From an uncultured Flavobacterium sp. (lineage in GTDB: Bacteria; Bacteroidota; Bacteroidia; Flavobacteriales; Flavobacteriaceae), in assembly GCF_946478785.1 (NCBI RefSeq), contig NZ_CAMLDD010000019.1, positions 38,234 through 102,233 of the forward strand: a DNA stretch of 64,000 nt, given 5' to 3'. Under the pieces are notes generated by a model, which was not told where the DNA came from, ran no database searches, and saw only the letters and a program-made list of their open reading frames with translations. A program made the translations under genes and the position numbers. Positions 37,791-64,000 of this stretch are shown here, in pieces. Numbering within the stretch: position 1 is the first letter of the stretch; every line of letters starts with the position of its first letter.

Positions 37791-38873
37791 TTATGCATTC
37801 AATACTTTTTCCTGGTGACCGATACTTTCCTGGTGAATTGCTTTGAACATTTTCAAAACAAACTCTTCAGTAAGACCTTTCTTCTCACCTTCTAAAATCA
37901 TTTTTCCTAAAATTTCGTTCCAACGGCTGTTTTGAAGAATCGCTACGTTAGCATCTTTTTTCACCTGACCAATTTCGTCAGCTACTTTCATACGTTTTCC
38001 TAACAACTCTAATAAGTTAGCATCCAATACATCGATATTAGCTCTTAGTTTAGTCATTTTTGAACTGTACTCATCTGTAGTATCATCCGTTTTTCTGATA
38101 GTCAAATCTTTGATGATTTGTTTCAAAACATCTGGAGTAACTTGTTGAGCAGCATCAGACCATGCATTGTCCGGATCGTAATGCGTTTCGATAATCATAC
38201 CATCGTAATTCAAATCTAAAGCCTCTTGTGTTACTTCGAAAATCATTTTACGATCTCCTGTAATGTGAGATGGGTCGATGATTAATGGTAAATCAGGGAA
38301 TTTATTTTGCAATTCGATAGCAATCTGCCATTCCGGAATGTTTCTGTATTTTGTTTTTTCGTAAGTAGAGAACCCTCTGTGAATAACACCTAATTTCTCA
38401 ATTCCGGCCATGTGTAAACGCTCAACACCACCTAACCATAAAGCTAAATCTGGGTTTACTGGGTTTTTAACCAAAACGATTTTATCCGTTCCTTTTAATG
38501 TATCAGCAATTTCCTGAACTGCGAAAGGGTTTGCAGTTGTACGAGCTCCAACCCATAAAACGTCGATATCATGTTCTAAAGCTAATTTACAATGCGCTGC
38601 AGTCGCCACTTCAGTACCCATTAGTAAACCAGTCTCCGCTTTTGCTTTTTGCAACCATTTCAAACCAATTTCCCCAACACCTTCAAATCCTCCCGGACGC
38701 GTTCTTGGTTTCCAGATTCCAGCTCTGAACACACTAACTTTTGAATCTTTCAATTCGTGAGCAATTTTCAAAACCTGATCTTCCGTTTCTGCACTACAAG
38801 GTCCAGCTATCACAAGTGGGTGATTTAAATTGAAATCTTCTAACCACTTTCTCATTTCTTTCTTATTTTCCAT
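37791..38873 (-). CDS. Bifunctional DAHP synthase / chorismate mutase
   Basis: 360 residues. The N-terminal domain (about 1-255) is a type I DAHP synthase of the KDPG-like branch: VIAGPCSAE at 16-24, FRAGIWKPRTRPGGFEG, GARTTANPF, LVKNPVNPDL and IIDPSHITGDR. A C-terminal AroQ chorismate mutase helix bundle (about 270-355) begins TKLRANIDVLDANLLELLGKRMKVADEIG. The enzyme catalyses the first shikimate step and the chorismate-to-prephenate step. It is 12 nt downstream of tyrA and is the last gene of the pheA operon, so it shares its attenuation control. Confidence 0.95.
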   Translation of the reverse strand: MENKKEMRKWLEDFNLNHPLVIAGPCSAETEDQVLKIAHELKDSKVSVFRAGIWKPRTRPGGFEGVGEIGLKWLQKAKAETGLLMGTEVATAAHCKLALEHDIDVLWVGARTTANPFAVQEIADTLKGTDKIVLVKNPVNPDLALWLGGVERLHMAGIEKLGVIHRGFSTYEKTKYRNIPEWQIAIELQNKFPDLPLIIDPSHITGDRKMIFEVTQEALDLNYDGMIIETHYDPDNAWSDAAQQVTPDVLKQIIKDLTIRKTDDTTDEYSSKMTKLRANIDVLDANLLELLGKRMKVADEIGQVKKDANVAILQNSRWNEILGKMILEGEKKGLTEEFVLKMFKAIHQESIGHQEKVLNA

Positions 38874-38885
38874 CTTAATTCTAAT

Positions 38886-39746
38886 TTACTTTTTAGTTGT
38901 TGTTAATCCGTTTAGTATCTCTTTTATTTTATTCGTGCTTTCCATTTCTTCAAAAATGGCATTGTAATTATCTTCTTTTAGCAAATCCCTAAACCGACTG
39001 AGATTCGATATATATTCTTCTAATGTTTCAATAACATGTTCCTTGTTCTGCTTAAAAATCGGCGTCCACATTGCGGGAGAACTTTTTGCCAAACGAACGG
39101 TGCTTTCAAATCCACTTCCCGCCATATCAAAAATATCCTGTTCGTCCTTTTCTTTATTCATTACCGTTTTCCCAAGCATAAACGAACTAATGTGCGACAA
39201 ATGCGAAACGTAAGCAATATGTTTGTCGTGCGATGTCGGATCCATATATCGAATCCTCATTCCAATTTCGCTAAAAAGTTTCAACGCCTTTTCCTGCAAT
39301 TTAAAAGTGGTTTTTTCCACCTCGCAAATAATGTTTGTTTTTCCCTGAAACAACCCTTTTATTGCTGCCGAAGGTCCAGAAAACTCCGTTCCTGCTATCG
39401 GATGTGTTGCAATAAAGTTTCTTCTTTTCGGGTGACTTGCTACCGCATCGCAAATTGGTTTTTTAGTAGATCCTACTTCAAAAACAATCGTTTGATCTCC
39501 AACTGCATCAAGCACTTTTGGCAAAACAATCAAGGCCACATCAACTGGAACCGAAACAATTACAAAATCAGCTTCCGCCAGATCTTCAAAGTTTCCTGCC
39601 TGATCGATTACGCCCAAATCAATCGCTTCCTGCAGATGATTTTCGTTTTTATCGATTCCAAAAACAGTAGCATCCGGATGTTTCTCTTTGATGTCCAGCA
39701 CCATCGAACCTCCTATCAGCCCTATTCCTATTACGTATACTTTCAT
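38886..39746 (-). CDS. tyrA: Prephenate dehydrogenase
   Basis: 286 residues from the ATG at 39746. The frame extends upstream to 39824, but those 26 codons run through RNA repeat copy B and precede the true Rossmann start MKVYVIGIGLIGGSMVLDI. It converts prephenate to 4-hydroxyphenylpyruvate with NAD(P). Other motifs: VFEVGSTKKPICDAV, THPIAGTEFSGP at about 112-123, and the helical dimer domain (SHLSHISSFML). Third gene of the Phe/Tyr operon; no fused chorismate mutase, as that is on the next gene. Confidence 0.94.
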   Translation of the reverse strand: MKVYVIGIGLIGGSMVLDIKEKHPDATVFGIDKNENHLQEAIDLGVIDQAGNFEDLAEADFVIVSVPVDVALIVLPKVLDAVGDQTIVFEVGSTKKPICDAVASHPKRRNFIATHPIAGTEFSGPSAAIKGLFQGKTNIICEVEKTTFKLQEKALKLFSEIGMRIRYMDPTSHDKHIAYVSHLSHISSFMLGKTVMNKEKDEQDIFDMAGSGFESTVRLAKSSPAMWTPIFKQNKEHVIETLEEYISNLSRFRDLLKEDNYNAIFEEMESTNKIKEILNGLTTTKK

Positions 39747-39760
39747 AATTCTTTTTATTA

Positions 39761-39840
39761 GAAGCTTAATCCTGCTATCCGCTTCAATCTTTTCTGCCGA
39801 ACCCCGGCAAAAAAGGATTTCCACTTCTATCAGGGCTAGG
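39761..39840 (-). ncRNA. Dispersed structured RNA element, copy B
   Basis: On the minus strand: CCTGATAGAAGTGGAAATCC, apical stem TTTTTTGCCG/CGGCAGAAAA, then GATTGAAGCGGATAGCAGG. The base closes CCTG/CAGG. Relative to copy A both helices change while pairing is kept. It lies between the aminotransferase stop and tyrA start, inside the operon transcript and in the same orientation. Confidence 0.65.
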
Positions 39841-39863
39841 GCTTCTCGTTTTTTAACACCTCT

Positions 39864-39940: not shown

Positions 39941-41086
39941 CTAAAATCGGTCAATCGCCTCTTGTACTTTTTCTTCTTTCACACACAACGAAAATCTGAT
40001 ATATCCTTCACCATTGCTTCCGAAGATTGTTCCCGGTGTGATAAAAATATGTTTCTCGTATAATATTTCATCAATGAACTTCTCTGCTGATTCGATTCCT
40101 TCAGGCAATTTCGCCCAGACAAAAAGTCCAACTCCTTCTTTATACACTTTGCAGCCTAATTTTTCTGCCAGTTTTTCTGTTAATTCTCTTCGGCGTCTGT
40201 AAATTTTGTTCTGGTCTTCGAACCATGATTTATCACAATTCAACGCTGCAATTGCACCTTTCTGAATTCCGTAAAACATGCCGCTGTCCATATTGCTTTT
40301 TACTTTTAAGACTGCATCTATAATTTCAGGATTTCCTAAAACCATTCCGACTCTCCAGCCTGCCATGTTGAACGTTTTGCTAAGTGAGTTTAATTCTAAA
40401 GCCACATCTTTTGCGCCTTCAACCTGCAATAAACTCATCGGATTATCATTCAAAACAAAACTATACGGATTATCGTTAACCAATAATATGTTGTGTTTTT
40501 TAGCAAAAGCAACCAATTTTTCAAATAACGCTAAACTTCCTCTCGCTCCTGTTGGCATGTGAGGATATCCCAGCCACATAATTTTCACTTTCGAAAGATC
40601 CATTTTTTCCAATGCTTCAAAATCCGGTTCCCAGGCATTTTCTTCTTTCAAATCATAATAAACCGGAACAGCCTGAACCAAATTAGTTACCGAAGTATAA
40701 GTCGGATAACCCGGATTCGGAATCAAAACGTGATCGCCTTCATTTAAAAATGCTAACGAAATATGCATGATTCCTTCTTTCGAACCCATCAAAGGCAAAA
40801 TCTCATTATTCGGATTTAACGCAACACCAAACTGATCCTGATAAAAATCTGACATTCCCTTTCTCAATTCCGGCAATCCCTGATAACTCTGATAACCGTG
40901 ACCGTTTTCATCTAAAATTGCCGAAGCTACTGCTTCAATAACCTCCTTCGACGGACTCAAATCAGGGCTTCCAATTCCCATACTGATAATCGGTTTTCCT
41001 TCAGACATTAGCTGACGAACTTCTCTCAATTTTGATGAGAAATAGTATTCTTCAACTGTATCTAATCTTTTTGCTGTTGTAATCAT
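39941..41086 (-). CDS. PLP-dependent aminotransferase of the Phe/Tyr operon
   Basis: 381 residues, fold-type I class I/II aminotransferase. MGIGSPDLSPS and GYQSYQGLPELRKGM are N-terminal motifs; PNPGYPTY and NDNPYSF carry cofactor contacts; the Schiff-base lysine is K237 in NSLSKTFNMAGWRVG. Placement between pheA and tyrA implies it transaminates phenylpyruvate and 4-hydroxyphenylpyruvate to Phe and Tyr, although sequence alone resembles the LL-diaminopimelate/alanine aminotransferase group. The stop is followed by a palindromic repeat and RNA copy B, then tyrA. Confidence 0.88.
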   Translation of the reverse strand: MITTAKRLDTVEEYYFSSKLREVRQLMSEGKPIISMGIGSPDLSPSKEVIEAVASAILDENGHGYQSYQGLPELRKGMSDFYQDQFGVALNPNNEILPLMGSKEGIMHISLAFLNEGDHVLIPNPGYPTYTSVTNLVQAVPVYYDLKEENAWEPDFEALEKMDLSKVKIMWLGYPHMPTGARGSLALFEKLVAFAKKHNILLVNDNPYSFVLNDNPMSLLQVEGAKDVALELNSLSKTFNMAGWRVGMVLGNPEIIDAVLKVKSNMDSGMFYGIQKGAIAALNCDKSWFEDQNKIYRRRRELTEKLAEKLGCKVYKEGVGLFVWAKLPEGIESAEKFIDEILYEKHIFITPGTIFGSNGEGYIRFSLCVKEEKVQEAIDRF

Positions 41087-41154: not shown

Positions 41155-41991
41155 CTAACCTACAAAGGGTTTCGTGTTTTTATATTCTCCCAATACCTTA
41201 AAATATTCTGCCATAATATTCAGTAATGTTTTGGCTTTCGAGTAATCTTCGTAATTTTCAAATGTTACATCTACGAAAAACGAATATTTCCAGGGCGTTT
41301 CAATTTTTGGAAGTGACTGAATTTTTGTCAAATTCAGTTTGCAGTCGCTCATTACATTCAAAACCGCTGCCAAACTTCCTCTTTTATGATCTAATTCAAA
41401 TTTGATGGAAGCTCTGTTGATTTCGCTTTCCGGTAAAAATGAATTCTGTTTTTTAATAATCACAAAACGGGTCATATTGTTTTTGATTGTTTGAATTTCC
41501 GGTGCCAGAATTTCTAAATCATACATTTCAGATGCCGTTCTGCTTCCAATCGCTGCAATACCTCTTAATTGATTTTGCTCAATTCTTCTGGCAGTTTCAG
41601 CTGTATCCTTATCTTCGACCAATTTGATGTTTGGATACTGTTTTAAGAAATCCATACATTGCAATAACGCCATCGGGTGCGAATGAACTTCTTTAATATC
41701 TTCAATCTCCTGACCTTTCAAAGCCATTAAATTTTGGTGAATGCTTAAATAATGCTCTCCAATAATGTGTAAATTATTCTTGTCAATCAAAGCATAATTC
41801 GGAATAATGGGTCCTGCAATCGAATTTTCAATTGCCATAACCGCCTGATCCGTTTTTCCTGAAAGCAAGCTGTCAACCAATTCCTCAAAAGACAGACATT
41901 CATCAATATCCACGCTTTCAGAAAAATATTCCTTCACAACCTGATGATGAAAAGATCCTTTGATACCTTGTATTGCAATTTTAGTTGTCAT
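41155..41991 (-). CDS. pheA: Prephenate dehydratase
   Basis: 278 residues. It decarboxylates and dehydrates prephenate to phenylpyruvate. Catalytic domain about 1-180 (IAIQGIKGSFHHQVVKEYF, then ENSIAGPIIPNYALI and the NNMTRFVII motif at about 170-178). A C-terminal ACT domain (about 195-275, HKRGSLAAVLNVMSDCKLNLTKIQSLP) is the expected phenylalanine feedback site. No chorismate mutase fusion. It is the first structural gene of the operon and is preceded by a leader peptide and terminator, so control is both transcriptional and allosteric. Confidence 0.95.
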   Translation of the reverse strand: MTTKIAIQGIKGSFHHQVVKEYFSESVDIDECLSFEELVDSLLSGKTDQAVMAIENSIAGPIIPNYALIDKNNLHIIGEHYLSIHQNLMALKGQEIEDIKEVHSHPMALLQCMDFLKQYPNIKLVEDKDTAETARRIEQNQLRGIAAIGSRTASEMYDLEILAPEIQTIKNNMTRFVIIKKQNSFLPESEINRASIKFELDHKRGSLAAVLNVMSDCKLNLTKIQSLPKIETPWKYSFFVDVTFENYEDYSKAKTLLNIMAEYFKVLGEYKNTKPFVG

Positions 41992-41997
41992 ATAGTC

Positions 41998-42028
41998 AAA
42001 AAAAAATCCTGATTTTCATCAGGATTGT
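41998..42028 (-). terminator. Attenuator terminator in front of pheA
   Basis: On the minus strand AATCCTGAT pairs perfectly with ATCAGGATT around a GAAA loop and is followed by nine T, ending 6 nt before the pheA ATG. The 5' arm, extended to ACAATCCT (42021-42028), can instead pair with AGGATTGT at 42073-42080 next to the leader stop codon, forming an antiterminator. The two pairings exclude each other. Confidence 0.85.
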
Positions 42029-42078
42029 ATATTAGTTTTATTTGTCTTTTAATTTTCTCAAATAACCATAGCACAATC

Positions 42079-42138
42079 CTAACTTCTACTAAAGAAGAAA
42101 TAAAAGTTGTTGCTAAAATAAAAACGGTTAGTTGCCAT
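42079..42138 (-). CDS. Phe/Tyr-rich leader peptide controlling pheA
   Basis: A 19-codon frame, ATG at 42138 and TAG at 42079-42081, encodes MATNRFYFSNNFYFFFSRS. Six of 19 residues are Phe and two are Tyr, with a Phe triplet at codons 14-16. The stop codon overlaps antiterminator segment AGGATTGT (42073-42080). A ribosome stalled at codons 14-16 leaves that segment free; one reaching the stop would cover it and allow the terminator before pheA to form. A small hairpin CTTCT/AGAAG lies in codons 15-19. This is the classical layout of amino-acid attenuation. Seen: frame, composition, pairings. Inferred: the mechanism. The symbol pheL would be analogous but is not assigned. Confidence 0.82.
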   Translation of the reverse strand: MATNRFYFSNNFYFFFSRS

Positions 42139-42348: not shown

Positions 42349-42444
42349 GTCATTCGACGAAGGAGAAATCTCATATGCAATTCGACAAAGATTGGCAACT
42401 TAGGGACGGAGCTACGAGTGTGATTTCTCCTTCGTCGAAATAAC
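42349..42444. repeat. Palindromic REP-like element with GACGAAGGAGAAATC arms
   Basis: Left arm GTCATTCGACGAAGGAGAAA (continuing TC) at 42349-42370 and its near-perfect inverse at 42422-42444 flank about 50 nt. Like the element at 39864 it opens with GTCATT. It occupies the 567-nt gap 41992-42558 along with the pheA leader and RNA copy A; the open frame at 42324-42659 crossing it is not a gene. Confidence 0.75.
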
Positions 42445-42474
42445 AAAAAGGTAATTGAAACGAGAATATTTTTT

Positions 42475-42550
42475 AGCCCCGATTGAAGTGAAAATCCTTT
42501 TGTGCCGGGGTTCGGCATAAAAGATTGTAACGAAAAGCGGGAATAGCTCC
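42475..42550 (+). ncRNA. Dispersed structured RNA element, copy A
   Basis: CCCCGATTGAAGTGAAAATCC, apical stem TTTTGTGCCG/CGGCATAAAA, then GATTGTAACGAAAAGCGGG. The base closes CCCG/CGGG. Closest to copy B. It lies 8 nt past the DUF1501 stop, on the strand opposite to that gene. Confidence 0.65.
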
Positions 42551-63875: not shown

Positions 63876-63955
63876 GGAGCTATTTCCCGCTATGCACTGC
63901 AATATTTTGCTTTTAAAAGGAAAAAGCAAAAGGATTTCCGTTTCTATCCTACCGT
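63876..63955 (-). ncRNA. Dispersed structured RNA element, copy D
   Basis: On the minus strand: GGATAGAAACGGAAATCC, apical stem TTTTGCTTTT/AAAAGCAAAA, then a TATTGCAGTGCATAGCGGG segment and AATAGCTCC as in copy A. The apical stem sequence differs wholly from the other copies yet pairs fully. The basal helix is not obvious here. No gene is seen in 63703-64000. Confidence 0.55.
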
Positions 63956-64000
63956 CTGGACACAAATATTTATATTTGGGGGAAAAATAAATTTTGAGAG

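Follow-up and report, generated by a model that had tools for sequence, protein, structure and literature searches.

Upstream of pheA in an uncultured Flavobacterium sp., a short reading frame rich in Phe and Tyr codons is followed by a hairpin and a run of T. Is this a ribosome-mediated transcription attenuator, and if so, which amino acids would it sense? We analysed the surrounding 64,000 nucleotides of contig sequence (the window, i.e., the whole stretch of DNA studied) and compared the locus with its counterparts in other Flavobacteriaceae and in the class Bacteroidia.

The pheA leader and its operon

The leader frame, read directly from the sequence, lies on the minus strand upstream of pheA and runs from ATG to a TAG stop (42138-42079; 60 nt). 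It encodes the 19 residues MATNRFYFSNNFYFFFSRS, eight of which are aromatic, with Phe at positions 6, 8, 12, 14, 15 and 16 and Tyr at positions 7 and 13. This is the 19-codon frame with six Phe and two Tyr reported in the initial annotation, and it places end-product codons in a short leader.

On the same strand, comparison with the flavobacterial consensus pointed to a probable promoter, composed of TTTTTTGG (42201-42194) and TACATTCG (42175-42168). The latter is one base off the flavobacterial TAnnTTTG box, the sigma-A consensus of F. psychrophilum (PMC9723704). The pattern TTG-N16-22-TAnnTT[TCG]G was found upstream of 23 of the 125 family leaders (window included), compared with 12 of 1250 mononucleotide shuffles, so most leaders fail this promoter rule. 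A sigma-70 scan gave 16 sites versus 16.9 expected, with no excess. None of the 125 family leaders had a Shine-Dalgarno-like site. In their start context, position -3 was an A in 78% and position -6 in 62%, which fits the A-rich start context reported for the flavobacterial group.

The intrinsic terminator, recognized from the sequence, the scan and the folds, is the 3:4 hairpin AATCCTGAT GAAA ATCAGGATT (42026-42005, minus strand), with a stem of 9 bp. Its T9 run (42006-41998, the first two T being inside the stem) is separated by six nt from the pheA ATG at 41991, as first described, and the whole element (42026-41998) stands between the leader and the first gene. Segment 2, the predicted 5' strand of the antiterminator, is GTTAGGATTGTG (42083-42072, minus strand); it was delimited by complement search, folds and co-variation in relatives. 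Its core AGGATTGT (42080-42073) is the exact reverse complement of ACAATCCT (42028-42021), in agreement with the earlier claim of an 8-nt segment complementary to the 5' part of the terminator. Six of the eight bases fall inside the 9-bp stem, and the duplex grows to 12 consecutive pairs, three of them G-U. Segment 3 (42029-42018, minus strand; sequence and folds) is common to both structures, serving the antiterminator as TACAATCCTG (42029-42020) and the terminator as its 5' arm AATCCTGAT (42026-42018). The minimum-energy fold of the window leader also contained a 1:2 (protector) hairpin (42115-42069, minus strand; arms 42115-42096 and 42087-42069), whose 5' arm corresponds to codons 8-15 and reaches into the Phe run. 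The predicted fold of the 176-nt leader was 3.2 sd below dinucleotide shuffles, with 1 of 200 shuffles as stable. The plain terminator scan performed no better than chance (1 site in 5.2 kb, 3.1 expected), and it gave no second terminator between 37500 and 42700.

Four genes follow on the minus strand: pheA (41155..41991), a prephenate dehydratase (PF00800, E 1.4e-58) with an ACT-like tail, whose match to the ACT domain PF01842 was weak and under its cut-off; a class I/II aminotransferase (39941..41086; PF00155, E 2.1e-63); tyrA (38886..39746), a prephenate dehydrogenase (NF006307 above cut-off; PF02153/PF20463); and a DAHP synthase/chorismate mutase fusion (37791..38873; PF00793 and PF01817). 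These domain matches bear out the operon content originally proposed behind one leader, and such an operon makes the amino acids that the leader would sense. For tyrA, a longer frame in the ORF listing begins at GTG 39824, with the NF006307 match starting at residue 27 of it; the start is probably the ATG at 39746 and not this GTG. The gene order pheA, aminotransferase, tyrA, DAHP synthase was found in 85 of the 97 loci with enough downstream sequence.

Leaders and terminators in the family and class

Loci were surveyed with a two-part rule, combining an ATG frame of 8-50 codons, having at least five F/Y/W in 10 residues, with a hairpin and T run at most 220 nt after the leader frame. The family sample had 149 genomes, 130 with a PheA match, and all 130 loci were examined. 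Leader and terminator were present in 124 of them. For L127 the leader was visible, but the contig begins inside it; by the rule, a leader was not found in L136, L160, L176, L196 and L201 (5/130). In the class sample, 52 of 198 Bacteroidia genomes had a PheA match. After removing those already in the family set (G001, G130), a close relative (L213) and a duplicate (L214), and leaving out G172 and G176, 46 further loci were examined, some of which may belong to the family. Leader and terminator were found in 29 (a few of these pairs weak by eye, e.g., L229), a leader only in 3 and neither in 14. A Pfam search for PF00800 in 20 of the 146 class genomes lacking a PheA match gave no hits (0/20), and therefore genomes without a PheA match were not counted as leader losses.

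Counting the window, the family and the class, leader plus terminator occurred in 154 of 177 loci, compared with 31 of 1770 dinucleotide shuffles; among the 673 other ORFs of these loci, 11 had both parts upstream. The leader rule by itself was passed by 169 of the 1770 shuffles. Single parts are thus weak evidence in AT-rich DNA, and it is their combination and conservation that carry the case. In seven of the 19 leaderless loci (L127 aside), namely L176, L216-L219, L237 and L242, a same-strand frame of at least 289 codons overlaps pheA or ends at most 92 nt from it, indicating that pheA is probably not the first gene of its operon there. Such a frame near pheA, of at least 100 codons, was found in one of the 154 leader-bearing loci.

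The distance between hairpin and gene bears on how the leader would act. If attenuation were translational, the 3:4 hairpin would mask the pheA start and a stalled ribosome would expose it, and the window hairpin, 13 nt away from the pheA ATG, is near enough to hinder initiation. However, the distance from stem end to pheA start varied between 2 and 187 nt across the 154 loci and was at least 40 nt in 43 of them. This variation argues for termination rather than translational masking, and we rejected occlusion as the main mode, considering it improbable. Also pointing to termination, at least five T in the eight bases after the stem were found in 147 of 154 loci, a count biased by the T run in the selection rule.

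All 154 leaders contained both F and Y, with a family mean of 5.3 F and 3.5 Y. W was present in 93 of them (84 of the 125 family leaders, window included, and 9 of the 29 outside), and was absent from the window leader and its 80 close relatives (best 80 of 303). Its share of the leader residues was 2.6%, as opposed to 1.0% for frames in shuffled DNA, and for 77 of the 94 W the last aromatic codon followed 4-5 or 9-10 residues later. The initial annotation had called the element a Phe attenuator; the attenuator reading was supported, but the sensor appears to be a mixed aromatic one. With the entry enzyme and both terminal branches in the operon, a mixed aromatic signal makes sense. Shortage of Tyr or Trp may also act on the leader.

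As close relatives of the window locus we took the best 80 of 303 PheA relatives in named genomes, which belong to Flavobacterium or are labelled near it. The leader frame was kept in all of these best 80 (80/80), with variation mainly at residues 2, 3, 11 and 20, and its 19-codon form was found in 8 of the 80. In the 75 distinct sequences, window included, codons 4-26 were identical except for 11 and 20, even at synonymous sites, and codons 6-8 (FYF) and 12-16 (FYFFF) were identical in 75/75. This invariance makes a constraint on the RNA as well as on the peptide probable. Codon 20 was GAG in 32, CAG in 24, TAG in 9, AAG in 9 and AGG in 1. The window is among the nine TAG forms; the other 66 of the 75 continue to a TGA at codon 27, the frame ending in SRS[EQKR]DCAMVI in most close relatives. 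This 26-codon form is present in an F. johnsoniae locus (L012), among others. The overlap between segment 2 and the stop codon is thus a local variant, and was rejected as part of the mechanism.

Spacing, co-variation and predicted folds of segment 2

In each locus, the stretch searched for the best complement of the terminator 5' arm began after the last aromatic codon and covered up to 70 nt, or less if the spacer was short. In all 154 loci, segment 2 started 6-20 nt past this codon, and in 137 the distance was 10-15 nt. This spacing presumably reflects, judging by footprint sizes, the leading edge of a ribosome with its A site on the last aromatic codon. Segment 2 had no fixed reading frame and could precede, overlap or follow the stop codon; the constant feature across loci was its distance from the aromatic run. 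The position of segment 2 therefore depends on the stall site and on neither the peptide nor the stop.

This constancy also bears on the idea that an RNA-binding protein, a riboswitch or a T-box works the same terminator, the aromatic frame being incidental. The synonymous invariance of most leader codons within the genus would suit a constraint on the RNA itself. Across the family and class, however, the aromatic codons stay while the surrounding sequence changes, and the distance of segment 2 to them is kept. In addition, Flavo-1 was the only Rfam family in the window at gathering thresholds; with no match over the leader at these thresholds, a T-box or metabolite riboswitch was rejected. 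We regard this whole group of explanations as very unlikely.

Segment 2 also changed together with the terminator arm. CGAGA after the aromatic run was found in 35 of the 69 loci with a TCTCG arm and in 0 of the 51 with a TCCCG arm (exact matches), and CGGGA in 31 of the 51 TCCCG-arm loci and 3 of the 69 TCTCG-arm loci (Fisher 1.5e-16 on the four counts, not corrected for kinship). Through G-U pairs, 42 of the 51 TCCCG-type loci can also pair with a TCTCG arm. For TCCTG arms, the class of the window, an exact core complement was present in 5 of 17 loci, or in 14 of 17 when G-U was allowed. In disjoint nearest-neighbour swaps, which control for kinship, the own arm paired better in 34, the swapped arm in 8, with 33 ties (75 pairs); among nearest-neighbour pairs with a different arm core, the figures were 20, 1 and 3 (24 pairs). 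The leader frame and the alternative pairing, whose conservation the initial annotation had made a test of its reading, are thus kept in relatives (leader plus terminator in 124/130 family loci) and co-vary (20/1/3). Compared locus by locus with mononucleotide shuffles, the 2:3 complementarity was significant (p<0.05) in only 103 of the 154; for the median locus, 26% of the arms from other species gave pairing at least as good, as expected of related sequences.

A constitutive terminator behind a chance AT-rich frame, with no regulation, is likewise scarcely credible: shuffled AT-rich DNA does yield the frame (169/1770) and the frame with a terminator (31/1770), and the terminator scan was no better than chance, but both parts recur in 153 other loci, with narrow spacing and co-variation between segment 2 and the terminator arm.

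For the RNA of the window leader up to the terminator loop, masking a ribosome on the last Phe codon gave a predicted 10-bp 2:3 stem with a further helix inside it (-15.0 kcal/mol); for a ribosome at the stop, the predicted fold was the terminator (-14.0 kcal/mol). Over all loci, 2:3 pairing of 5 bp or more appeared in 153 of 154 stalled folds (mean 10.9 bp, versus 5.8 bp with region 2 shuffled), and a terminator of 6 bp or more in 153 of 154 folds with the ribosome at the stop. The mutual exclusion of terminator and antiterminator, as claimed at first, is thus supported by prediction, with the spacing and the co-variation in agreement. The related claim that ribosome position decides the outcome is supported by the masked folds, which favour 2:3 in the stalled state and the terminator at the stop; the segment 2 overlap with the stop codon is a local feature. 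With the ribosome at the stop, segment 3 was free before segment 4 appears in 120 of the 154 loci, and not in 34. Pairing of segment 2 with the upstream leader (1:2, at least 4 bp) was predicted in 125 of 154 loci, a count without shuffle control.

Energies point to a kinetic process. For the full window leader in the stalled state, the best fold has the terminator (-15.9 kcal/mol), compared with -15.0 for the antiterminator alone, and hence the outcome must be kinetic. In the naked window RNA, before segment 4 emerges, 2:3 was preferred over 1:2 by energy, which makes the untranslated state uncertain and the weakest part of the model.

Proposed mechanism, related systems and nearby elements

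From the sequences, their conservation and co-variation, the predicted folds and the operon order, we infer that a ribosome-mediated transcription attenuator tunes pheA, the aminotransferase, tyrA and the DAHP synthase/chorismate mutase gene to the supply of charged Phe- and Tyr-tRNA (probability about 0.9). Transcription would begin just upstream, and a ribosome would enter the leader without a Shine-Dalgarno site. When charged Phe- or Tyr-tRNA is scarce, the ribosome would stall in the FYFFF run (codons 12-16), covering the 5' arm of the 1:2 hairpin, with its leading edge approximately at the beginning of segment 2. Segment 2 could then pair with the emerging segment 3, blocking the terminator and letting the polymerase enter pheA. 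When Phe and Tyr are plentiful, the ribosome would pass over segment 2 to the stop and leave segment 3 for segment 4, whose pairing would end transcription at the T9 run, upstream of pheA. If the leader were not translated, 1:2 would sequester segment 2 and the terminator would form.

The E. coli/Salmonella pheA (pheL) attenuator resembles this arrangement, with alternative antiterminator and terminator hairpins before a prephenate dehydratase gene and a Phe-rich leader like the one here; the likeness is drawn from descriptions of the enterobacterial system. The flavobacterial locus differs from pheL in its mix of Phe and Tyr (with Trp in many relatives), in its four-gene operon with tyrA and DAHP synthase, and in having no Shine-Dalgarno-like site. 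The enterobacterial ilvGMEDA and thr attenuators likewise have a single leader that combines codons for more than one amino acid of a pathway, whereas the locus here is aromatic, not branched-chain or Thr/Ile, and belongs to another phylum. Among attenuated operons, pheA has been listed before (PMC1183508).

The initial annotation held that nothing of the kind had been described in this phylum. This was contradicted by a study of F. psychrophilum (PMC9723704), which reports strong hints that leader-peptide attenuators precede amino acid operons, and names conserved structured 5' elements without an Rfam match upstream of pheA, hisG and others, the pheA element being said to be present in other Flavobacteriaceae genera. 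F. psychrophilum was absent from the named loci of our survey, but its pheA element is very likely the same as the one here. The relevant section of PMC9723704 is without the leader sequence, the pairing, the sensed amino acid and the range beyond the family. In B. thetaiotaomicron, a transcriptome study described long 5' UTRs containing short frames that resemble leader peptides (PMC7366714; the term pheA is absent from its main text). His attenuation is mentioned once in the introduction of PMC8305728, in its part on regulation. As of 2010, leader-peptide systems had been shown only in Proteobacteria and Actinobacteria, to which His leaders were added for Firmicutes, according to PMC2965389. 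We found no fuller account of a Bacteroidota pheA attenuator in the open-access literature. Classic attenuation is reportedly also the subject of Lyubetsky 2007 and Lopatovskaya 2010, which may describe Bacteroidetes attenuators. What appears to be new here is the anatomy of the element together with its co-variation, its presence outside the family, and a probable mixed Phe/Tyr(/Trp) sensor in front of four genes; the mechanism itself would be classic attenuation.

Other biosynthetic operons of the class were surveyed in 30 genomes, hand-picked for spread. L262 and L297 had no usable upstream sequence, and L318 and seven weaker places were left out. Of 29 trpE loci (L289-L317), 23 had an upstream frame with three Trp codons in a row, often as NTWWW, and 22 of these also had a terminator; upstream of hisG (L261-L288), a His-rich frame was found in 23 of 28 loci, 21 with a terminator, some of them weak. 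All of these are raw counts without shuffle control. The trpE frames probably represent classic trp attenuators.

We lean slightly towards the view that the Bacteroidia possess old, class-wide classic attenuators, including a Phe/Tyr/Trp sensor over the Phe/Tyr branch and the entry enzyme, as well as His and Trp leaders. If so, the coupling between RNA polymerase and ribosome would have to be close in these bacteria, where translation mostly starts without Shine-Dalgarno sites. Since classic attenuation needs ribosome and polymerase to move together, these leaders make coupling in Bacteroidota directly testable. An attenuator kept in the family and part of the class would also offer a ready reporter for aromatic amino acid supply, and one mixed aromatic leader over both terminal branches plus DAHP synthase would be an economical regulatory design.

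Two further elements were noted near the operon. The Flavo-1 RNA (RF01705, function unknown) had three matches in the window, at 42471-42548 (plus strand), 39764-39841 (minus strand) and 63879-63961 (minus strand). The first lies upstream of the pheA leader; the second is located between the aminotransferase gene and tyrA and overlaps the extra stretch of the longer GTG frame of tyrA. Upstream of the pheA promoter there is an inverted repeat (42351-42441), with arms at 42351-42370 and 42422-42441, formed by GATTTCTCCTTCGTCGAAAT and an opposite-strand copy with 2 mismatches; allowing up to 3 mismatches, the window contains no further copy.
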